From Haloplanus vescus (lineage in GTDB: Archaea; Halobacteriota; Halobacteria; Halobacteriales; Haloferacaceae), in assembly GCF_900107665.1 (NCBI RefSeq), contig NZ_FNQT01000001.1, positions 1,218,398 to 1,282,397 on the forward strand: a stretch of DNA of 64,000 nt, written 5' to 3'. The notes beneath the pieces are model-generated. The model did not search any database. It was given only the letters and a program-made list of their open reading frames with translations, and was not told where the DNA came from. Positions 13,086 to 39,364 of this stretch are shown piece after piece. The translations under genes were made by a program, and so were the position numbers. Numbering within the stretch: the stretch's first letter is position 1; each line of letters begins with the position of its first letter.

Positions 13086-14156
13086 TTACCGCGCGAGCGG
13101 CATCGCGTAGCCAGTCTCCGTCTCGACCACCGTCTCCCACGTCGCCTCGCAGTCACAGGACACCTGCTCGAAGACCGAGGGGTCCTGTCGGAGGCTGAAG
13201 TCCTTGATGGCGCGTTCGACCTGCTCGTCGCACTCGCCGCAGTTGTGCGGGCCGCGTTCGCTCCCGCCGCCGACGGGGTCGGAGACGACGATGGCGTCGG
13301 CGTCGGCGGTGCGGTCCAGCACCTCGGCGACCGACCAGAGCCACGGCGGCCGGTAGCCGCCTTGGAAGTAGAGTTCGTCGACCATCGTGTACCGCTGGAC
13401 GTTACAGGGGTTCATTGAGACGGTGTGACAGTACTCCGCACAGCGGCGAACCGACTCTACCATGTCCTCGATGGCCTCGGCTTCGGTGAGGAAGGGCGGC
13501 TTCATGAGGAGATATGCCTTGACGCCGGCGCCCGCGGCCTCGGCTTCTGCCGTCGCGTCGACGAAGTCCTCGAAGTCGAAGTACTTGTTCACGCAGTCGT
13601 GGCGCACGCGGTCGGTCGCCGTCTCGAGGCCGACGGCCACGTCGGTGTCGAGGCCGCGCTCGGTGAAGTCGGCGAGTTTCTCGCGGTCGACGAAGTCGGG
13701 GAGGGACTCGACGACGATGCGCTCGCGGTCGGCGAAGGCGTCAGCGATGGCGGCCCGCGTCTCCGCGCCGACTTCGCGTTCGTCGAGGAAAGAACCGGAG
13801 GTGTAGATTTTGATGAGTTCGGCCGGCTCGTCGGCGTTCTCGCGCTCGTGGGCGAGACAGGCGTCTATCTGGTCCATCAGCGCGTCGTGGGAGACGGAGC
13901 CGCCCTCGACGGATTCGGCGACGTAGCCACACATGGTACAGCCGCCGGCGCGCGCCCAGCGACAGCCGCCGGTGTTGAGGATGATGGTCAGCGACTGGTA
14001 GACGCCGCCGGGCGTGTTGTCCTCGTCGAGCCACACCCGCGTCGGCTCGTGGGGGTCGTACGTCTCGTCCTTGCGCGACCGGATATCGCGCATCACCTGA
14101 TTGTGGGCGTCCATGCCCTTCCCCTGCTCGTAGACGTCGGGGCTCGGTTCGCTCAT
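13086..14156 (-). CDS. raSEA: Archaeosine synthase beta subunit, radical SAM protein RaSEA
   Basis: Partner of ArcS in making archaeosine at tRNA position 15: ArcS attaches lysine to preQ0, and RaSEA cleaves the lysyl adduct by radical SAM chemistry. The 356-residue protein has the unusual cluster motif CRWARAGGCTMCGY (C-x7-C-x2-C) near residue 67, then KIYTSGSFLDERE, VESLPDFVDREK, GLETATDRVRHDCVNKYF and KAYLLMKPPFLTEAEAI. A C-terminal pair CGECDEQ and CDCEATW may bind metal. The ATG giving MSEPSPDVYEQGKG was preferred over one 41 codons upstream because homologues begin this way. ArcS and TgtA are at 31792-33543 and 35053-36543. Confidence 0.92.
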   Translation of the reverse strand: MSEPSPDVYEQGKGMDAHNQVMRDIRSRKDETYDPHEPTRVWLDEDNTPGGVYQSLTIILNTGGCRWARAGGCTMCGYVAESVEGGSVSHDALMDQIDACLAHERENADEPAELIKIYTSGSFLDEREVGAETRAAIADAFADRERIVVESLPDFVDREKLADFTERGLDTDVAVGLETATDRVRHDCVNKYFDFEDFVDATAEAEAAGAGVKAYLLMKPPFLTEAEAIEDMVESVRRCAEYCHTVSMNPCNVQRYTMVDELYFQGGYRPPWLWSVAEVLDRTADADAIVVSDPVGGGSERGPHNCGECDEQVERAIKDFSLRQDPSVFEQVSCDCEATWETVVETETGYAMPLAR

Positions 14157-14315
14157 TGGCGGCGGTAGCCGGGCGACGCGTAAAGCGGCTTCGGGGTCGG
14201 CCGCCGTGACGGCGGGAGTGGTTCGACACCTGACACCGTCGTCAGCGCGGCGTGCGGCAGTTTTCGTCGGCGTAACCACTTTCGATTACATATCCGAAGC
14301 AACGACTAACAGCTT

Positions 14316-14344: not shown

Positions 14345-16279
14345 ATGACTGACTTAGGCGGTTTCAAAGATCACGTAGCGCACGTGGACCTCAGCGAGGG
14401 CGATGTCACATATCAGGGCATCGACGACGAGGACGCGAAGAAGTACATCGGGGGACGCGGCCTCGGTGTGAAGTACGTCTTCGACGCTGGTCCGGATGTC
14501 GACCCGCTGGGTCCCGACAACCGACTCGTGTTCATGAACGGTCCGCTCACCGGCTCGCAGGCCGTCATGAGCGGTCGAATCGCGATTTGTACGAAGTCCC
14601 CGCTCACGGGGACGGTGACGGACTCCCACCACGGTGGCTGGTCCGGCGCCCGACTCAAGTGGTCCGGCTTCGACGGCCTCGTCTTCGATGGCCAGGCGGA
14701 CGACCCCGTCTACGCCGTCGTCGAAGACGGCGAGGTCGAGCTCCGTGACGCCTCCCACATCTGGGGCAAGGGCGTCCACGAGACCCGCGAAATCCTCGAG
14801 GAAGAGGTCGACGGGTCCTACGGCAAGAACCTCTCGCACATGGCCATCGGTCCGGCCGGCGAGAACGAAGTTCGTTACTCCTGTGTCGTCAACGAGGACG
14901 ACCGCGTGTCGGGCCGCGGTGGCACCGGCTGCGTGATGGGCAACAAGGGCCTGAAGGCCGTCGTCGTGAAATCGGGGACGAAGATGCCCAAGCCCGCTGA
15001 CTCCGACACGTTCGGCGAGGGCGCCCGCGAGGCCATGCAGGTCATCCAAGAGTCCGACGTCACCGCGCCCAACGAGGGCGCGCTGTCGATGTACGGTACG
15101 AACGTGCTCATGAACATCACGGAGGAGATGGACGCACACCCGACCAAGAACGGTCAGTACACGTCCTCCTTCGCGATGAACGAGGCAGAGGGCACGGACA
15201 TCGAGGCAGAGCGCATCAGCGGCGAGAACGTTCGCGAGAACATCCTCGTCGACGAGCCGACCTGTCACTCCTGCCCCGTCGCTTGTAAGAAAGAGGTCGA
15301 AGTCGACTACAAGCACAAGGGCCAGGACATGAACGTCCAGATGGAGTCCTACGAGTACGAGAGTGCGTGGGCTCTGGGCACCAACTCGGCGAACGACGAC
15401 CGAGACGCCATCGCGGTCATGATCGACCGCTGTAACGACATGGGCATCGACACCATCGACATGGGGAACATCTTCGCCATGGCGATGGAGATGACCGAGA
15501 AAGGCAAACTCGACGACCTGGACGACGGCATCGACTGGGGCGACGAGGAGCACATGATCGACCTCATCGAAGAGGTCGGTCACCGCGACGGCGAACTCGC
15601 TGACCTGCTCGCCGAAGGTGTCGAGAGCATCGCCGAATCGCAGGATGCTCACGACTGCCGTCTCGACGTCAAGGGCCAGACCATCGCCGCTTACGACCCC
15701 CGCGCGATGAAGGGGATGGGCATCGGCTACGCGACTTCGAACCGCGGTGCCTGCCACCTGCGCGGCTACACGCCGGCTGCCGAGGTTCTCGGCATCCCGG
15801 AGAAGGTCGACCCCTACGAGTGGGAGGGCAAGGGCGAGCTTTGCGCCACCTTCCAGGACCTGCACGCCATCTCGGACTCGTTCGACATCTGCAAGTTCAA
15901 CGCGTTCGCAGAGGGCATCGAGGAGTACATCAAGCAGTACAACGGCATGACCGGCCGCGACCTCACCGAGGAAGAGCTCATGACGGCTGGTGAGCGCGTG
16001 TACAACCTCGAACGCTACTTCAACAACCTCGCCGGCTTCGACGGCTCGGACGACTCGCTCCCGGGTCGCTTCGTCGAGGGCGACGAGGAAGCCATCCCGG
16101 GCCAGCGCGGCTCCGAGGGTGAACTCTGCGAGCTCGCAGAGATGAAAGACGAGTACTACAGCCACCGTGGCTGGGAAGACGGCGTCGTCACCGACGACAC
16201 GCTCGAACGCCTCGACATCGACATCGGTCCGGGCACGGGCGTCTCCGGCTCTGGCGGTCAGGCGCCGGCAGACGACTAA
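14345..16279 (+). CDS. aor: Aldehyde:ferredoxin oxidoreductase (tungsten-pterin family)
   Basis: Oxidises aldehydes to acids with ferredoxin as acceptor, using a bis-pterin tungsten (or molybdenum) site and one [4Fe-4S] cluster. The 644-residue protein has the N-terminal pterin-binding GGRGLGVKYVFD, SGRIAICTKSPLTGTVTDS and GRGGTGCVMGNKGLKAV. It then has the cluster ligands CHSCPVACK (Cys 307, 310, 314), DPRAMKGMGIGYATSNRGACHLRG, and the fourth ligand in FDICKFNAF (Cys 516). All four cluster cysteines are therefore present, unlike the paralogue at 29934-31766. It stands alone, with its own promoter and a convergent NUDIX gene after it. The physiological substrate is not deducible. Confidence 0.93.
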   Translation: MTDLGGFKDHVAHVDLSEGDVTYQGIDDEDAKKYIGGRGLGVKYVFDAGPDVDPLGPDNRLVFMNGPLTGSQAVMSGRIAICTKSPLTGTVTDSHHGGWSGARLKWSGFDGLVFDGQADDPVYAVVEDGEVELRDASHIWGKGVHETREILEEEVDGSYGKNLSHMAIGPAGENEVRYSCVVNEDDRVSGRGGTGCVMGNKGLKAVVVKSGTKMPKPADSDTFGEGAREAMQVIQESDVTAPNEGALSMYGTNVLMNITEEMDAHPTKNGQYTSSFAMNEAEGTDIEAERISGENVRENILVDEPTCHSCPVACKKEVEVDYKHKGQDMNVQMESYEYESAWALGTNSANDDRDAIAVMIDRCNDMGIDTIDMGNIFAMAMEMTEKGKLDDLDDGIDWGDEEHMIDLIEEVGHRDGELADLLAEGVESIAESQDAHDCRLDVKGQTIAAYDPRAMKGMGIGYATSNRGACHLRGYTPAAEVLGIPEKVDPYEWEGKGELCATFQDLHAISDSFDICKFNAFAEGIEEYIKQYNGMTGRDLTEEELMTAGERVYNLERYFNNLAGFDGSDDSLPGRFVEGDEEAIPGQRGSEGELCELAEMKDEYYSHRGWEDGVVTDDTLERLDIDIGPGTGVSGSGGQAPADD

Positions 16280-28712: not shown

Positions 28713-28981
28713 CCACCGGCGCGCATCGCCTTCTGGGCGAACCGCTCGATGAGCGGGTCCAACGCCTCGGGGTCGCCCTCGAAATCCAGGTCGACCTGCG
28801 TCAGCGTCGTCGACGGGCCGATGCTGACGGTCTGTGTCGACAGGTCGGCGGCCCAGTCCTCGGCCTCGACTCGGTCGTCGCTGACCTGCTCGGCGCCGAG
28901 GTTTCCGAGATACTTGATCGCCAGTCGCTTCGAGATGCCCCGGAAGGAGCGCTCTCGGGTGACCCAGTCGTCGTCGGTCAT
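28709..28981 (-). CDS. MoaD-associated small protein (DUF1952-like), 90 aa
   Basis: Begins MTDDDWVTRERSFRGISKRL, followed by AIKYLGNLGAEQVSDDRVEAE and TLTQVDLDFEGDPEALDPLIE. It resembles the domain found fused to the C-terminus of MoaD in some bacteria (DUF1952, as in Thermus MoaD-related proteins); I give this from memory and tentatively. Here it is a separate gene whose ATG overlaps the stop codon of the ubiquitin-fold gene upstream (ATGA), the split equivalent of that fusion. Probably cytoplasmic and a partner of the SAMP-like protein. Confidence 0.72.
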   Translation of the reverse strand: MTDDDWVTRERSFRGISKRLAIKYLGNLGAEQVSDDRVEAEDWAADLSTQTVSIGPSTTLTQVDLDFEGDPEALDPLIERFAQKAMRAGG

Positions 28982-29262
28982 GCTCCTCCTGCCACCGGCG
29001 GGAATATCGACAGCGTGTCGTCGTCTTCCATCAGCGTCTCGGTGCCCTCCATGTGCAGGACCTCGCGACCGTTTTTCAGGATGTTGAGGTTCGGCTGCAG
29101 GTCGCCGTCCTCGGTCAGGATTTGGCCCTCGAGTCCCTCATACTCGGATTCGAGCGTCGAAAGGACGTTTCCGACCGTCGCGCCATCCTCGAACTCGTGT
29201 TCGAGCGTCTTCTGGCCGACGGCTTCGCGGAACGTCGCGAAAAATCGCAAGTTCAGATGCAT
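28978..29262 (-). CDS. samp3: SAMP3/MoaD-like ubiquitin-fold protein ending in GGA
   Basis: A beta-grasp protein of 94 residues beginning MHLNLRFFATFREAVGQKTL, with TVGNVLSTLESEYEGLEG, LNILKNGREVLHMEG and the terminal SIFPPVAGGA. It closely resembles small archaeal modifier protein 3, which is both conjugated to proteins and related to the MoaD sulfur carrier. Both roles need a C-terminal Gly-Gly, activated by the E1-like UbaA. Here one alanine follows the Gly-Gly, so cleavage or loss of function must be considered. The extra codon arises where the stop overlaps the ATG of the next gene. The ATG at 29262 is preferred over a non-homologous 14-residue extension. Confidence 0.85.
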   Translation of the reverse strand: MHLNLRFFATFREAVGQKTLEHEFEDGATVGNVLSTLESEYEGLEGQILTEDGDLQPNLNILKNGREVLHMEGTETLMEDDDTLSIFPPVAGGA

Positions 29263-29313: not shown

Positions 29314-29697
29314 TTACCGGTCGCTCAGGCGAATTCCGTCTTCGACAGTCTGGTAGTTGCGCTCCTGGTCGATGCGCTCTGCGACCCAGCCGACATCCTG
29401 AATCTGCATGATGAGGTCCGCCTGCAGGTTGCGCCACGCGATGGCGTAGATGGGCGACTGCCCCCACGCGCGGAGTTCGGGGACGAACTCGTCGTACTGT
29501 TCGAGCTGGTCTTCGAGACGTTCGAGAGCGCTGACGACGTTCTGGGCTGCCTCGCGCTGGTCCTCAGCCGCCTCGACGGCCTCGTTGAGTCTGGCCTCGA
29601 GTCCGGCGACAGCCCGCTGCATGTCCTGTCGGGCCTCGTCGTCGTCGGGGAGCGATTCGAGAATCTGTTTCGGGACGCCAAGGTCGAATTCGTCCAT
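29314..29697 (-). CDS. Coiled-coil protein, 127 aa
   Basis: Start at the ATG giving MDEFDLGVPKQILESLPDDD. Residues about 20-75 (ARQDMQRAVAGLEARLNEAV, EAAEDQREAAQNVVSALERL and EDQLEQYDEFV) form one long heptad-rich helix. A compact aromatic C-terminal part follows (GQSPIYAIAWRNLQADLIMQ, then DVGWVAERIDQERNYQTVEDG). No catalytic motif. It lies between the AOR-like/zinc-ribbon genes and the SAMP-like gene, with gaps of about 50 bases on each side. Possibly a scaffold; function unknown. Confidence 0.7.
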   Translation of the reverse strand: MDEFDLGVPKQILESLPDDDEARQDMQRAVAGLEARLNEAVEAAEDQREAAQNVVSALERLEDQLEQYDEFVPELRAWGQSPIYAIAWRNLQADLIMQIQDVGWVAERIDQERNYQTVEDGIRLSDR

Positions 29698-29747
29698 ACG
29701 ATTGGGTGGCCCGCGAGCGGTAAAAGGCTCTCGCACTCGGCCACTCC

Positions 29748-29927
29748 TCACTCCAAGAAGTCACGTAGCGCCGCCGAACAGGACCGACAGAGCAGCACCC
29801 GAAGCTCGCCTTCGGCGTCGAGCAAGTCGAGTGCGCCGTAGACGTGTCCGGGGTCGATGGTCTGCCCGCACCGATGACAGTCGTGCGGGCGAGCGGGGTT
29901 CGACCCGGTGGTGGTGTCGTCGGTCAC
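29748..29927 (-). CDS. Small zinc-ribbon protein, 59 aa
   Basis: Starts at GTG, MTDDTTTGSNPARPHDCHRC. Two Cys pairs are visible, CHRCGQTI at residues 17-24 and CRSCSAAL at about 47-54, enough for one zinc ribbon, with VYGALDLLDAEGELRVLL between. It starts 6 bases after the stop of the AOR-like gene, so co-expression is very likely. Small zinc-ribbon proteins of this kind act as adaptors or stabilise partners; the exact role here is unknown. Confidence 0.68.
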   Translation of the reverse strand: MTDDTTTGSNPARPHDCHRCGQTIDPGHVYGALDLLDAEGELRVLLCRSCSAALRDFLE

Positions 29928-29933
29928 GGCTCG

Positions 29934-31766
29934 TCAGCGTCCGTGGTCGTGGCGGCGGTCACGCTCCCTGGCACCCGACTCGTCGGTGACGGCGGGGGCC
30001 GCACCGAGCGGTGTCTCGTCGTCGATGACGCTGTGGAGGCCCAATCGCTCGACGGTCACGGCGGTGGGGAGGCCGTCGGGCGACCACCCGCGGGCGTCGT
30101 AGTAGGCGTCGAGCATCGCCTCGAAGGCCTCGCGGTCGACGGTCCGGCCCGCCGCCGGGCCGTCGGGCATCGGCTCCTCGAACACCTCGGGCAGGGAGTC
30201 GTCGTCGCGGTCGAACCCCTCGCGGGCGTTGAACAGGCGCACGAGCGTCCAGACGCGCTCGCCGAGCGTCGCCAGCGAGTCTCGGTCGTGGTCGATGTCG
30301 ACGGCCTGGAGCCACTCGGCGCCGAGGTCCTGCCACATCGTCTCCCCGGCGAAGTCGTCGACGACGAGGCTCCAGAGCGTCGAGCGGACGTTCTGGGCGC
30401 CGACGACGGTGGCGACGCGGTCGGCGGTCGACCACTCGTCGCGGGCGAACGCTTCGCGCTCGACGGGGCGGGCGCGGCGGTGACAGCCGCCGCGGTCGCT
30501 CGTGGCGTAGGCGAGTGCCATCCCCGCCGCGCCCCGCGGGTCGTACGCCGGCAGCTCCATCGACTTCACCGTCGGCACCGCGTTCGCGCCGGACCGGTCG
30601 CGGGCGGCCTCCACGCCGTCGGCGAGGGTGTCGCCGAGGGCCGTCGACCGCGCCGCAATCTCGGCGAGCAGTCGCTCCGCAGCGTCGGCGTCGCCGAAGT
30701 CGAGGTCGGTGTCGAGGGCGTCGGCGTCCGTGGCGCGCATGGCCCACGCGACGGCGTTGCCCGCGCTGATGACGTCCATCCCCAATCGGTCACAGGTCGC
30801 GCCGAGACGGGCCACGTCGTCGAAGTCGTCGATGCCGAGGCCGGCGCCGAGCGACATGAGCGTGCCGCCGCGGGGGACCGCCTCGCCCTCGTCCGTGTCG
30901 ACGCGGAAGCCACCGGGGACGGCGTCGCTCTCGTTCTCACGCCCGGTCGACGCCTCGCGGACGGCCTCGACGCCGATGTCGGCGGCGTCGTCGAAGGTGC
31001 CGCCCTGCCAGCCACGCGTCGAGAGGACGCCCACCTCGTTGGCGAAGTCGACGCTCTCGACAGTCTCGCCAGCGGCCTGCCAGCGACCGGTGTCGTCGTC
31101 GCGGTAGGCGTCGGTGTACCGGGCTTGGAGGTCCGCGAGTTCGCCCGTCGGTTCCGGTGGCGTGCCGTGGACGGCGACGGCCTTCAGTCGCTTGGCACCC
31201 ATGACGGCGCCGGCGCCGCCGCGGCCCGCGTGGTGGTCGCCGCCGTCGGAGGCGATGGTGGCGTACGCAACCTCGCGTTCGCCCGCAGGGCCGACGCAGG
31301 CGACGGCGCCGTCGAGGGCGTCGTCGACGGCGGCGGTGTCGGCGCCCCAGAGGTCGCCGGCGGGCGAGAGCGACGCCTCGCCGTCGCGGACGGTGAGTAC
31401 GACCGGGTCGTCGGCGGTGCCCTGAATCACCAACCCCATCGCGTCGGGGAGGGCGCCAGCGAGGGCGTCGGCGAACGAGCCGCCGCTGTAGGAGTCGAGG
31501 AAGGCGCCGGTCAGCGGCGATTTGGTGACGGCGGCGAAGCGCGACTCGCCGGGGAGATAGCCCGAGAGCGGACCGAGGAGGAGCGCAAGGCGGTTGTCCG
31601 GGCCGAGCGGGTCGGCCCCGGCGTCGAGTTCGTCGTAGAGATAGCGGGCGCCGAGTCCCTTGCCCCCGAGGAAGTCGCGGCGCCAGTCGGCGGGGATTCG
31701 TTCTCGCGAGACGCGACCGGCCGAGAGGTCGACCCGAATCACGTCGCGCCGGACGGGCGTTGACAT
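29934..31766 (-). CDS. AOR-family pterin protein lacking the [4Fe-4S] cysteines
   Basis: A 610-residue relative of aldehyde:ferredoxin oxidoreductase. Pterin-binding features remain: GGKGLGARYLYDELDAGADP, SRFAAVTKSPLTGAFLDSYSGG, GRGGAGAVMGAKRLKAVAVH, DPRGAAGMALAYATSDRGGC. But the CxxCxxxC that ligates the cluster is absent: the corresponding region runs AVPGGFRVDTDEGEAVPRGG with no cysteine, and the fourth ligand site reads NVRSTLWSLVVDDF. The intact paralogue at 14345-16279 has all four. Without a cluster, electron flow to ferredoxin would have to differ, or the protein may have a different role. The ATG at 31766 was chosen over a GTG six bases upstream. Confidence 0.88.
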   Translation of the reverse strand: MSTPVRRDVIRVDLSAGRVSRERIPADWRRDFLGGKGLGARYLYDELDAGADPLGPDNRLALLLGPLSGYLPGESRFAAVTKSPLTGAFLDSYSGGSFADALAGALPDAMGLVIQGTADDPVVLTVRDGEASLSPAGDLWGADTAAVDDALDGAVACVGPAGEREVAYATIASDGGDHHAGRGGAGAVMGAKRLKAVAVHGTPPEPTGELADLQARYTDAYRDDDTGRWQAAGETVESVDFANEVGVLSTRGWQGGTFDDAADIGVEAVREASTGRENESDAVPGGFRVDTDEGEAVPRGGTLMSLGAGLGIDDFDDVARLGATCDRLGMDVISAGNAVAWAMRATDADALDTDLDFGDADAAERLLAEIAARSTALGDTLADGVEAARDRSGANAVPTVKSMELPAYDPRGAAGMALAYATSDRGGCHRRARPVEREAFARDEWSTADRVATVVGAQNVRSTLWSLVVDDFAGETMWQDLGAEWLQAVDIDHDRDSLATLGERVWTLVRLFNAREGFDRDDDSLPEVFEEPMPDGPAAGRTVDREAFEAMLDAYYDARGWSPDGLPTAVTVERLGLHSVIDDETPLGAAPAVTDESGARERDRRHDHGR

Positions 31767-31788
31767 CGACACACGTAGTCGGGAAACC

Positions 31789-31796
31789 GTGTTAAG
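31789..31796 (-). promoter_or_regulatory. TATA-like box for the AOR-like gene, overlapping the arcS stop
   Basis: On the minus strand CTTAACAC lies 23-30 bases before the ATG at 31766. It overlaps the arcS stop codon, so the AOR-like operon can be transcribed separately from arcS. Confidence 0.45.
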
Positions 31797-33543
31797 CGTT
31801 GTCCTCCACGTGTCGCACCTGTACGGCGACGCCGCGGGAACTTTCGCTCATCTCCGGGCCGTTCATCTCGGCCCGGCCGACACCGAACGCGACCGGTCCC
31901 TCGACGACGACTTCATCGCCGACGCGGATGTCGTCGCTCGCGTCGACGACGCCCGGCGCCAACACGCTCCCGTGGGGGACGAAGGAGTCGATTTCGACGC
32001 GCTTGGTCGGCGCGTCGCTTGCCGCCCAGTGGCGAGCGCCTTCGAGCGTAAAGGAGAGCACGCCGTACTGCGGGACCTGCGCCGCGAGTTGGGTGCCGTC
32101 GCCGTCGCGGACCTGCAGTTTGGGGTGGCGACTCGTCGTCTGCAGGTCCGGGAACAGGTCGTCGCCCGCGCCGGCGCCGAACTGGTAGTCAGCGATGGCG
32201 CGAACCGTGTTGTGCTGGCGCTCTCGCTTCGAGAACTTGAGTTCGCCAGCGAGGGCGGCCGAAAGGTTCGACAGCGACTCCGAGGTGGTCGGGTGGTCCT
32301 CGACGGTGTACTCAAAGGGCACGTCCACCTCGGCGGCCACGCGTTCGCAGATGTCACGGTAGCCCTCGCCGGGGACGTGGGCGATGACCCGCGGGTAGTC
32401 GTTGCGTTCGAGATAGCGCCGGAGCACCTCGGCGACGAACGTCTTCTCGCCCTCCGTCCAGTCGCCGGTGACGACGGCGTCGTAGTGCTGGGCCGGGTAC
32501 GTACACTCCAGCTCTTGGGGGACGACGCCGATGGGTGAGGTCATCGACGCGAGGTGGCCGCGGTAGTTGATGGCGCGGTGGAACTGGGCGTGGCTCTGGG
32601 AGTCGCTGTAGGGCTTGCGCGCCGAACACGGGACGAGAACGAGGGGGTTGGCGAACCGGTTCCGGTAGCGGGTCGTCACCCGGTCGGCGAAGCGCTGAAT
32701 CTCGACGCGGTTGAGGGTGTCCTCGCTCGCCGCGCTAATCTCGGCGTCGCGAATCACGGGCGTCCGCCGTTCGAGGTAGCGGTACTCCTGGTCGAACTCG
32801 CGGAAGGTGGCGGTCAGCCAGTTCTCGTGGCGGGCTTGGCCCTCCAGATAGTCGCGGAGTCGCCCCCGTCGAATCCGGGTGCGGGCCGTCGCGAGCGCCG
32901 ACTCCAGCGCCGCGACGTTGTGTTCGACGCAGTCCTCGCGGGTGAACTCGTCGCGCGGCGGGTCGGAGGGGAAGGCGCCGGGGAGTTCGGCGAGTTCGTC
33001 GAGGTGGTATTCGCCCTCGGTGGTGAGATAGCGGCCCTGTCGGCCCTTCACGCGGGCGAGTTTGGTGTCGACGAGGTCGACGCCCGCGGCGACGAGGGAG
33101 GCGACGTTCGCGGGCGTCGCGACGCCGGAGAGATAGAGTGCGGTGTCGGCGGGAATCGCCTCGCGGACGGCGATGATCTCGTCCCGGAACGATTCGCCGT
33201 GGCCGACGACGCCCGACGCCGTCGAGAGGACGTACGCGTCACAGCCGAACTCGCCTGCGGTGTCGCCGGTGACGACGGCGGCGGACGGGTAGTCTACGTC
33301 CGGAATGTCGGCGTCGAAGGAGTCCTGTACGGTCGGGTCCGTCCCCGCCGGGAACGAGCGGTGGGGGAGGACCGTCAACTCGTCGTCGCTTCCCTCGGGC
33401 ACGTCGCGGTCGGCGGCCCACAGGCTCCCGCCGTCGACGACACTGTCGTCGGCGAGGGCGGGCGTCGTCACGGACTCGCGCAGGCGGAGTTCGCCAAGGC
33501 GGGCGGCCCCGTCGCGCGCGTGAATCTCGAAGTACTCGGTCAT
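31792..33543 (-). CDS. arcS: Archaeosine synthase alpha subunit ArcS
   Basis: Adds lysine to preQ0 at tRNA position 15; RaSEA (13086-14156) then releases the product. The 583-residue protein has an N-terminal TGT-like barrel (PHRSFPAGTDPTVQDSFD, VLSTASGVVGHGESFRDE, LYLSGVATPANVASLVAAGVD) and, near residue 320, the ArcS-specific motif PCSARKPYSDSQSH (PC-x3-KPY-x2-S-x2-H). An ELECTYPAQHYDAVVTGDW block follows. A C-terminal PUA domain is seen in VEIDSFVPHGSVLAPGV and DEVVVEGPVAFGVGRAEMNG. The ATG giving MTEYFEIHARDGAARLG was chosen; longer readings enter unrelated sequence. Confidence 0.95.
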   Translation of the reverse strand: MTEYFEIHARDGAARLGELRLRESVTTPALADDSVVDGGSLWAADRDVPEGSDDELTVLPHRSFPAGTDPTVQDSFDADIPDVDYPSAAVVTGDTAGEFGCDAYVLSTASGVVGHGESFRDEIIAVREAIPADTALYLSGVATPANVASLVAAGVDLVDTKLARVKGRQGRYLTTEGEYHLDELAELPGAFPSDPPRDEFTREDCVEHNVAALESALATARTRIRRGRLRDYLEGQARHENWLTATFREFDQEYRYLERRTPVIRDAEISAASEDTLNRVEIQRFADRVTTRYRNRFANPLVLVPCSARKPYSDSQSHAQFHRAINYRGHLASMTSPIGVVPQELECTYPAQHYDAVVTGDWTEGEKTFVAEVLRRYLERNDYPRVIAHVPGEGYRDICERVAAEVDVPFEYTVEDHPTTSESLSNLSAALAGELKFSKRERQHNTVRAIADYQFGAGAGDDLFPDLQTTSRHPKLQVRDGDGTQLAAQVPQYGVLSFTLEGARHWAASDAPTKRVEIDSFVPHGSVLAPGVVDASDDIRVGDEVVVEGPVAFGVGRAEMNGPEMSESSRGVAVQVRHVEDNA

Positions 33544-33587
33544 GGGGTGTCGTGGCGGGCGGCGCGGAACTACGTTTCGTTCCCGCC

Positions 33588-33821
33588 TCACATCGACCGG
33601 GTGCCCACCTCGTCGCGCACGACGTAGTAGAGCACCCAGACGACGAGACTGCCGAGGAAGGCGCCCACGGCCCACGCGAGGGCGTGACGACTCCCCCGAC
33701 CCTTCGCGTCTCGATAGACGAGGACGGAGACGGCGAGGGGGACGACGAACGACAGGCCGAACACGAGGAGCAGCACCAGAATCTCGATAGCGCCGGGGAC
33801 GGCGAACTGGAGGGGCAACAT
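33588..33821 (-). CDS. Small two-helix membrane protein
   Basis: A 77-residue protein with two hydrophobic segments (about residues 10-37 and 48-68: GAIEILVLLLVFGLSFVVPL and HALAWAVGAFLGSLVVWVLY), joined by a basic loop YRDAKGRGSRHA. Both termini are short. The YRDAKGRG loop recalls small haloarchaeal membrane proteins seen elsewhere, function unknown. It ends 44 bases upstream of arcS on the same strand. Confidence 0.65.
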   Translation of the reverse strand: MLPLQFAVPGAIEILVLLLVFGLSFVVPLAVSVLVYRDAKGRGSRHALAWAVGAFLGSLVVWVLYYVVRDEVGTRSM

Positions 33822-37426: not shown

Positions 37427-39256
37427 TCACTCGTCGTCGGTGGGCGATTCGACGCGGTCCCGGAACGCCCGCGCAGGGCGTCGGTCCCGCGAGGGCGACC
37501 CGAACAGTCGCTCCCAGACCGAGCGCCGGGAGGGACGTTCGGCCAACAGCACCGAGCAGTCCACGTCGTTGATGACGTCCAAGTGGAGCGAGTTCTGGAC
37601 CAAGCGCGAGAGCAGACCCTGTTCGGTCGCCCCGAGCATGAGCATCGTGCTGTCGGTGGCTGCGCGGGCGATTGCCGGTTCCACGTCGCCCGAGTCGACG
37701 GTGACAGTCACGTCCGTCAGGTCGTGCGTGTCTGCCCAGTTCCGGAGGAAGGCCTCGCCCGCCCGGTGATCGGCCTCGTCGGCGACGACGTGGAGTAACT
37801 CGACCTCCGCGCTCGCGACCTGCTGGAGGGCGCGAGCGACCGCGGCGTTCAGGTCGGAGTCGGGGCCGCCCGCGGTCGGCAGCAGAATCTTCGACGTGTC
37901 GAGTCCGCGGTCGTTGACGACGAGGAAGTCACAGGGGAGTCGGTTGGTCAACTCGTCGAGGGGGCGCTCCGCGCGGGCCGAACTCCACAGGCCCTCGCGG
38001 TCCCAGTCCATCACGACCAGATTGGGATTGGTCCGGCGGGCGAGCGAGAACACTTCCTCGAAGGACCGCGGCGTGACGACCGTCGACGTCTCGAAGGACA
38101 CGTCGTAGGTGGTGCCGATCTGTCGGGTGTCCTCGAGGAGGCGTTCGGACTCGTTTCGGATTCGGTCCCGCTGGGCCGCGTCGGCGTCCGGCGCCCACCG
38201 GCGCGGCGCCTGCACGACGTGGACGACGTGGACTGTCCCTTTCTCATGGCTACTGGCCAGTTGGCAGGCCAGCTTGACCACGCCGGTCTCGGTCCGGGGG
38301 TTGGCGATGGGGATCAGGATGCGGTAGGCCTCGGGGTCGCGGACGATGTCCTCGACGGTGTCGATGACGGGGACGTACGACCGCCCGGCGAGCGACCCCA
38401 GCAACCACTCCCGAATGGAGAGGCGGCGGACGTTCTGGAAGCGGTCTATCTCCAACCGGCGGTCGGAGGTTTGGTAGTAGTTGACGACCGTCACCAACAG
38501 GATGCCGCCGAGGGTGTTGCCGACCAGGACGGGCAACACGAATTCGAGCAGTGCGGGGCCGGGATTGACGCCCGACACCAGCGCCAGATAGACCACCTCG
38601 GTGAAGGAGACGACGACGTGGAACAGGTTCCCCATCGGGATGGCGAGGAAGGCGAGATAGACGACGGCCAGTCGGGAGACGGTGTCGCGGGCGGCGAAGT
38701 TGATCCAGACGACGCCGGCGACGATGAGGCCCGCGAAGGCAGCCTTGACGAACAGGTCAGTCGCGGGTGTGGCGATGCCCTTCTGTGCGAACTCGGCCGC
38801 GACCGTCGCGGTGGTGTCGTCGAACACGCCGCCGTACGCGAGAGCGACGGCGCCGAGGCCGCCACCGAGGAAATTGCCGGCGAGGACGACCAGCCAGTGC
38901 CGGACGAGCGTGGGAATCGACACCAGTCGCTCCAGCGTCAGCGCCACCGGTGGGAGCGTGTTCTCCGTATACAGCTGGTAGCCGCCGATGATGATGTAGA
39001 TGAATCCAAGGGGGTAGAGCAGGACGCCGACGAACTTGGAGTCGGTCGTCGCCGTGACGGAGGCGTACAGCAGGAAGGTGACGGTGATTGCAAAACCCGC
39101 GGCCAGCGCGCTGAAGAACAGCTCGCGCGTCCCCGAGGTGATTTCATGGTCGGCATCGGCGACCACGCGCTGATACACCTCGTCGGTGGATAGCTTGTCG
39201 GCAAGCACGTCGTCGTCGTGACTCCCGTCCGGAGCCGCGGAGTTCGAATCGGCCAT
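37427..39256 (-). CDS. Formate/nitrite-type channel fused to two Usp domains
   Basis: A 609-residue chimera. Residues about 30-290 are an FNT channel with six membrane segments (SALAAGFAITVTFLLYASVT, LYTENTLPPVALTL, RHWLVVLAGNFLGGGLGAVA, RDTVSRLAVVYLAFLAIPMGN with the filter region, PVLVGNTLGGILLVTVVNYY). A universal-stress-protein domain follows (about 320-445: RILIPIANPRTETGVVKLA, CDFLVVND), then a second (about 450-590: KILLPTAGGPDSDLNAAVAR, TMLMLGATEQGLLSRLV, CSVLLAERPSRR). The Usp domains, often ATP-binding, may gate or sense transport. Which anion passes is not known. MADSNSAAPDG was taken as start. Confidence 0.9.
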   Translation of the reverse strand: MADSNSAAPDGSHDDDVLADKLSTDEVYQRVVADADHEITSGTRELFFSALAAGFAITVTFLLYASVTATTDSKFVGVLLYPLGFIYIIIGGYQLYTENTLPPVALTLERLVSIPTLVRHWLVVLAGNFLGGGLGAVALAYGGVFDDTTATVAAEFAQKGIATPATDLFVKAAFAGLIVAGVVWINFAARDTVSRLAVVYLAFLAIPMGNLFHVVVSFTEVVYLALVSGVNPGPALLEFVLPVLVGNTLGGILLVTVVNYYQTSDRRLEIDRFQNVRRLSIREWLLGSLAGRSYVPVIDTVEDIVRDPEAYRILIPIANPRTETGVVKLACQLASSHEKGTVHVVHVVQAPRRWAPDADAAQRDRIRNESERLLEDTRQIGTTYDVSFETSTVVTPRSFEEVFSLARRTNPNLVVMDWDREGLWSSARAERPLDELTNRLPCDFLVVNDRGLDTSKILLPTAGGPDSDLNAAVARALQQVASAEVELLHVVADEADHRAGEAFLRNWADTHDLTDVTVTVDSGDVEPAIARAATDSTMLMLGATEQGLLSRLVQNSLHLDVINDVDCSVLLAERPSRRSVWERLFGSPSRDRRPARAFRDRVESPTDDE

Positions 39257-39364
39257 CGCCGTAGGTAGGGCCTTCAAAGGGAGCGACAAGTAGCTTTGTG
39301 GTCGGGCGGCCCCGACGTGCGGCGAGTACTAACCCTTACGGCACCGCCCGTCCAAAGTCCGCCG

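Follow-up and report, generated by a model that had tools for sequence, protein, structure and literature searches.

A haloarchaeal clade of aldehyde:ferredoxin oxidoreductase family proteins that lack [4Fe-4S] ligands, are linked to genes for FDH-type bis-MGD enzymes, and are probably non-catalytic

Results

The window, a 64,000-nucleotide stretch of the Haloplanus vescus genome, carries on its minus strand a gene (29934..31772; 612 amino acids from a GTG) whose product was recognized by Pfam search and alignment as a clusterless member of the aldehyde:ferredoxin oxidoreductase (AOR) family, here called AOR-X. An ATG at 31766, internal to the GTG-started frame, is the likelier start and gives 610 amino acids. 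Directly upstream on the same strand lies the gene for ArcS, the archaeosine synthase alpha subunit (31792..33633; NF040592, 801.6 bits). Directly downstream, also on the minus strand, is a gene for a 145-amino-acid protein that looks coiled-coil-like by eye and is found in 4 compared loci (29314..29751), followed by SAMP1, a ubiquitin-like/MoaD-type sulfur carrier (28978..29262, minus strand; NF041918, 110 bits against a cut-off of 60). A canonical, cluster-bearing AOR paralogue on the plus strand (14345..16279) served for comparison and is intact, as originally predicted, with the ligands CHSCPVAC ... DICKF. Of the four AOR-family genes in the host genome, three are cluster-bearing; the genome also has a yqeC gene about 67 kb from AOR-X, whose own neighbors are ArcS and SAMP1.

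Neither of these two neighbors qualifies as a general partner, since too few loci have either. ArcS is rarely conserved beside AOR-X. SAMP1 in the window resembles the WorX/SAMP1-type ThiS/MoaD genes found beside WORs, but such adjacency is a feature of canonical AORs (15 of 20) that is not general for AOR-X, where SAMP1 lies nearby in only a few genera (3 of 78 loci). A 620-amino-acid formate/nitrite-transporter-like protein is encoded at 37427..39289 (minus strand), with its FNT match at about residues 45 to 276 and a long C-terminal extension; it was rejected as a partner because no other AOR-X locus has a homologue. Archaeosine genes flank both AOR paralogues in the window, with RaSEA (13086..14279, minus strand) by the canonical AOR and ArcS by AOR-X. 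On contig 2 of the same genome, one cluster-bearing AOR (L207) lies near an FDH gene.

AOR-X is a full-length member of the AOR/WOR sequence family. The Pfam domains AFOR_N (E value, 1.3e-63; 214.8 bits; cut-off, 29.8) and AFOR_C (E value, 4.6e-91; 306.3 bits; cut-off, 27) together cover its whole length, and a Pfam search of the window protein found no other domain, the FdhD-NarQ domain (PF02634) included. The solved structures that it matches are AORs and FOR. An AlphaFold2 model built from 51 sequences (pLDDT, 92.8; pTM, 0.92) has the three-domain AOR fold, aligning with FOR 1B25 at a Z score of 49.3 (2.1 Å over 580 residues), with 9MQX at 49.2, and with 1AOR at 48.5 (1.9 Å over 569 residues), with TM scores of about 0.88 for both 1AOR and 1B25; unrelated or designed structures at Z scores of 4 or below were left out of this comparison. 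As the model is ligand-free, the fold is evident from it and cofactor binding is not.

Residues were compared in 50 aligned orthologues from more than 40 genera, the window protein among them, using Pyrococcus furiosus (Pf) AOR numbering and residue roles taken from a cryo-EM study of AOR (PMC10413684). All four cluster cysteines are gone, as originally predicted: Pf C288, C291, C295, and C494 align with Ser, Val, Phe, and Asp in the window protein, the first three in a shortened segment (residues 282 to 289; 30906..30929, minus strand) aligned to the CxxCxxxC loop, and none of the 50 orthologues has a cysteine at any ligand position. The fourth ligand was correctly called lost, but it had been placed in NVRSTLWSLV; the true position is D472, a few residues further on in WSLVVDDF, and it is Asp in 50/50 orthologues. 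No alternative ligand cysteines are apparent. The window protein has three cysteines in total. Two of them, C327 and C430, are shared by the orthologues and match C337 and C447 of the cluster-bearing P. furiosus AOR.

The active site has changed as well, a loss that the original prediction did not mention. In place of the P-E-Y-E catalytic segment (Pf E311-Y312-E313), AOR-X has P-R-G-G (residues 300 to 303; 30864..30875, minus strand), with E311 replaced by Arg and Y312 by Gly in all 50 orthologues. The catalytic glutamate E313 (E331 of AORAa, with its role from PMC10413684) has become Ala, Gly, or Ser in 36, 8, and 6 of them, respectively, so that within a new P-R-G-[A/G/S] motif the R-G-[A/G/S] portion is present in 50/50. 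The equivalent of the catalytic histidine Pf H448, H431 in the sequence GGCH (30480..30482, minus strand), is kept throughout (50/50).

Pterin motifs had been described as retained, and for most contacts they are: R76 is kept in 49/50 orthologues, G95 in 50/50, D338 in 47/50, and D343 in 50/50, along with the AGRGG motif. The exception is the pterin-site residue D489, replaced by Trp in every orthologue within the segment WSLVVDD (residues 467 to 473; 30354..30374, minus strand), which also holds the Asp at C494; judging from the alignment, one pterin site may be weaker as a result. R182 is replaced by His, as it is in the cluster-bearing sister group. The new Asp at C494 presumably mirrors the one at the pseudo-symmetric D343 of the first pterin motif, and from this match we infer that the second site may hold pterin without a cluster.

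With the window protein as query, matches were found in 177 of the 243 genomes of the order. Orthologues, assigned by identity (mostly 51 to 84%) and with fragments counted, are present in 126 of 243; full-length matches at 43 to 47% identity were assigned to the sister group, outside this count. A contig scan gave 80 loci, with haloarchaeal titles except for metagenome-assembled genomes named only Euryarchaeota or uncultured archaeon, and 78 of the 80 proved to be AOR-X. Scores against the AOR-X query separate intact members (824 to 1004 bits) from the sister group (about 614) and from proteins outside the order (at most 425).

In a quick tree computed without the ligand columns and with SH-aLRT as its only support, 26 sampled AOR-X proteins form one clade (support of 99), to which a cluster-bearing clade (L083 to L088) is joined as sister at 100. 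This supports monophyletic loss of the cluster, and the glutamate is lost in the same clade. With a single AOR-X clade and a sister that retains all four cysteines, one change suffices to explain the absence of the cluster, and 20 of 20 AORs sampled from the rest of the phylum keep the four cysteines. Reading frames in the sampled loci are full length across many genomes, and the possibility of a misread frameshift does not apply. Four close pairs gave dN/dS ratios of 0.09 to 0.23, and AOR-X is under purifying selection. The invariance of the replacement residues is likewise not expected from decay. Sister-group genes (L083 to L088, L170, and L174) have other neighbors, by eye aldo/keto-reductase-like and cupin-like genes, and bis-MGD genes were found near them in 0/6 and 0/2 loci in two samples.

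The neighborhood of AOR-X across haloarchaea is that of cofactor maturation for bis-MGD enzymes. Within about 6 kb of the gene, an FDH-like bis-MGD enzyme was found in 25, YqeC in 20, TorD in 17, and MobA in 14 of 50 loci. At least one of these four lies within 7 kb in 69 of 78 AOR-X loci versus 3 of 39 cluster-bearing AORs (Fisher P = 3e-18, uncorrected for shared ancestry); the 78 named loci and the sample of 50 come in part from the same genomes. YqeC was identified as TIGR03172 (168.9 bits; cut-off, 73) next to a MobA-like transferase, which scores below the MobA equivalog cut-off. In Haloferax gibbonsii (L127), yqeC is co-directional with AOR-X and lies 61 bp downstream of it, with mobA at 816 bp. 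The neighboring FDHs have the R-x-C-H signature of Cys-type enzymes and are of three different types, and AOR-X often does not directly adjoin them.

Two other genes recur in these loci. In 17/50 loci the start of a DUF7124 (PF23439) gene is no more than about 45 bp from the end of AOR-X, and the two often overlap; in many genomes (L072, L070, L068, and others) the DUF7124 gene overlaps or abuts the AOR-X stop codon, and its product is a possible partner. A protein of about 200 amino acids with no Pfam or NCBIfam match is encoded beside the cytosolic FDH gene (L060, L074, L075, and others).

Across genomes, AOR-X tracks YqeC. YqeC is present in 125 of 126 AOR-X genomes versus 31 of 117 others, and the sole exception (G133) is a genome 77% complete. 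Fisher tests of these counts are blind to ancestry, and within-genus contrasts alone bear on kinship: by eye, 14 genera hold both genomes with the two genes and genomes with neither (12 when genera resting on incomplete genomes are set aside), so the pattern is not that of one old split. PF00384 proteins occur in 126/126 AOR-X genomes. Fdh-alpha scores over its cut-off in 112 of the 126 versus 54 of 117 others, and all 14 AOR-X genomes without it have other PF00384 proteins. FDH as the sole determinant of AOR-X presence was rejected, as this association is weaker than that with YqeC. Among the 31 genomes with YqeC and no AOR-X, 29 have Fdh-alpha; AOR-X is dispensable for YqeC-linked FDHs.

In an FDH tree, the proteins of 15 genomes lacking both genes, AOR-X and YqeC, group in a clade of their own (SH-aLRT, 99), and FDHs of genomes with AOR-X or YqeC fall elsewhere. 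In a hand-picked set, the cytosolic FDH type was found in 29 of 51 genomes with YqeC versus 1 of 18 without. FdhD (PF02634) was detected in none of 80 haloarchaeal genomes, most of which have Fdh-alpha genes; the same model matches 8 of 14 control genomes, including E. coli, Methanocaldococcus, Sulfolobus, and Methanosarcina. Genomes with FDH and without AOR-X also lack a detectable FdhD, and AOR-X therefore cannot be a general substitute for it.

Discussion

AOR-X shares both Pfam domains, the fold, most pterin contacts, and the catalytic histidine with characterized AOR/WOR proteins (Pf AOR 1AOR, FOR 1B25, Aromatoleum AorB 8C0Z, and E. coli YdhV) but differs from them in lacking the [4Fe-4S] ligands and catalytic glutamate, in the replacement of D489 by Trp, and in its genetic context of bis-MGD/FDH maturation. 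Going by these residues, it is probably a repurposed, non-catalytic member of the family. In the main-text passages of the 2026 WOR classification (PMC13328260), the large subunit of the classes described contains a [4Fe-4S] cluster, and there is no mention of a clusterless clade.

Because both the cluster and a key catalytic residue are lost and the gene lies by FDH cofactor genes, AOR-X probably acts in carrying or assembling cofactor, and not as an enzyme that oxidizes aldehydes. Three functions had been suggested at the outset. Storage of pterin or a scaffold role fits best, given the lost glutamate and the bis-MGD/FDH context. An alternative electron acceptor is less probable, since cluster and catalytic residues were altered together. 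More specifically, we lean toward AOR-X being a non-redox bis-pterin scaffold or hand-off protein that works with YqeC and MobA to mature bis-MGD enzymes, chiefly FDH-type Mo/W enzymes, and we give this reading somewhat more credence than doubt. AOR-X may serve at bis-MPT assembly, guanylylation, sulfuration, or insertion. In the sequence of events that we infer, the general pathway would load Mo or W onto MPT, AOR-X would bind and hold the resulting Mo/W-bis-MPT core without aldehyde turnover, and the cofactor would pass to MobA for guanylylation and, through interaction with YqeC, be readied, perhaps by sulfuration, and brought to the FDH apoenzyme.

Such a role has parallels in known systems. 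MobA guanylylates the bis-MPT core, and FdhD takes up bis-MGD, supplies its sulfido ligand, and inserts the cofactor into FDH (PMC13197769, PMC12140954). E. coli YdhV, itself of the AOR family, still held bis-Mo-MPT when purified without a functional [4Fe-4S] cluster, and MobA converted this cofactor to bis-MGD in vitro (PMC9103625). By analogy, AOR-X would suit the part of a protein that keeps the bis-MPT core and later hands it on. Its proposed role resembles that of FdhD/FdsC, the FDH-dedicated bis-MGD chaperone and sulfurtransferase, in that cofactor would be held for FDH; AOR-X, however, has no FdhD domain, and FdhD holds bis-MGD by means of a dimer tunnel (PMC12140954). The haloarchaeal TIGR03172 YqeC beside a MobA-like transferase likewise recalls the YqeC/YgfJ (MocA) set of selenium-dependent molybdenum hydroxylases but is linked instead to FDH-type bis-MGD enzymes and AOR-X. 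The function of YqeC is uncertain even in bacteria (PMC11448449). A broader proposal is tentative, and we doubt it more than we credit it: in haloarchaea, AOR-X and YqeC would jointly make up a system that replaces FdhD in maturing FDH-type bis-MGD enzymes, with AOR-X holding the core during guanylylation or sulfuration and then handing it to FDH.

Among other explanations, AOR-X could be a bis-pterin enzyme of formate or C1 metabolism with a non-redox or cluster-independent reaction (for example, a hydratase-like step or transfer straight to a partner protein) and be encoded alongside FDH because the two share a pathway. The retained H448 and most cofactor contacts, the purifying selection, and the invariant R-G-[A/G/S] motif, which could be a new active site, would suit such an enzyme, but the genes that recur beside AOR-X (YqeC, MobA, and TorD) have to do with cofactors rather than with one metabolic pathway, and the FDHs are of three types; we regard it as unlikely. 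A structural or regulatory subunit, or a pseudoenzyme of FDH complexes that has lost pterin binding, would account for the D489-to-Trp change, the loss of the E-Y-E segment, and the close linkage to FDH genes. This is quite unlikely given that R76, G95, D338, D343, and AGRGG are retained and that AOR-X follows YqeC more tightly than FDH and often does not stand directly beside it. A general Mo/W-pterin storage protein with no dedicated client would agree with a fold retained and catalysis lost, yet is improbable in view of a linkage that is specific to bis-MGD/FDH genes and absent for canonical AORs. Finally, an error of sequencing or reading frame, or a pseudogene in decay, is ruled out with near certainty by occurrence in 126 genomes, full-length frames in the sampled loci, invariant replacement residues, and dN/dS values of 0.09 to 0.23.

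If the broader proposal of a joint AOR-X and YqeC maturation system is correct, AOR-X would be, to our knowledge of the open-licence literature, the first AOR-fold protein to serve as a cofactor-assembly factor. The joining of two MPT units round one metal is a step described as not completely resolved (PMC9103625), and haloarchaea have many FDH genes with FdhD undetected. A conserved protein with the AOR fold but without its former chemistry, encoded in the company of YqeC, MobA, and FDH, makes the bis-MPT step, the function of YqeC, and the absence of FdhD testable in haloarchaea.
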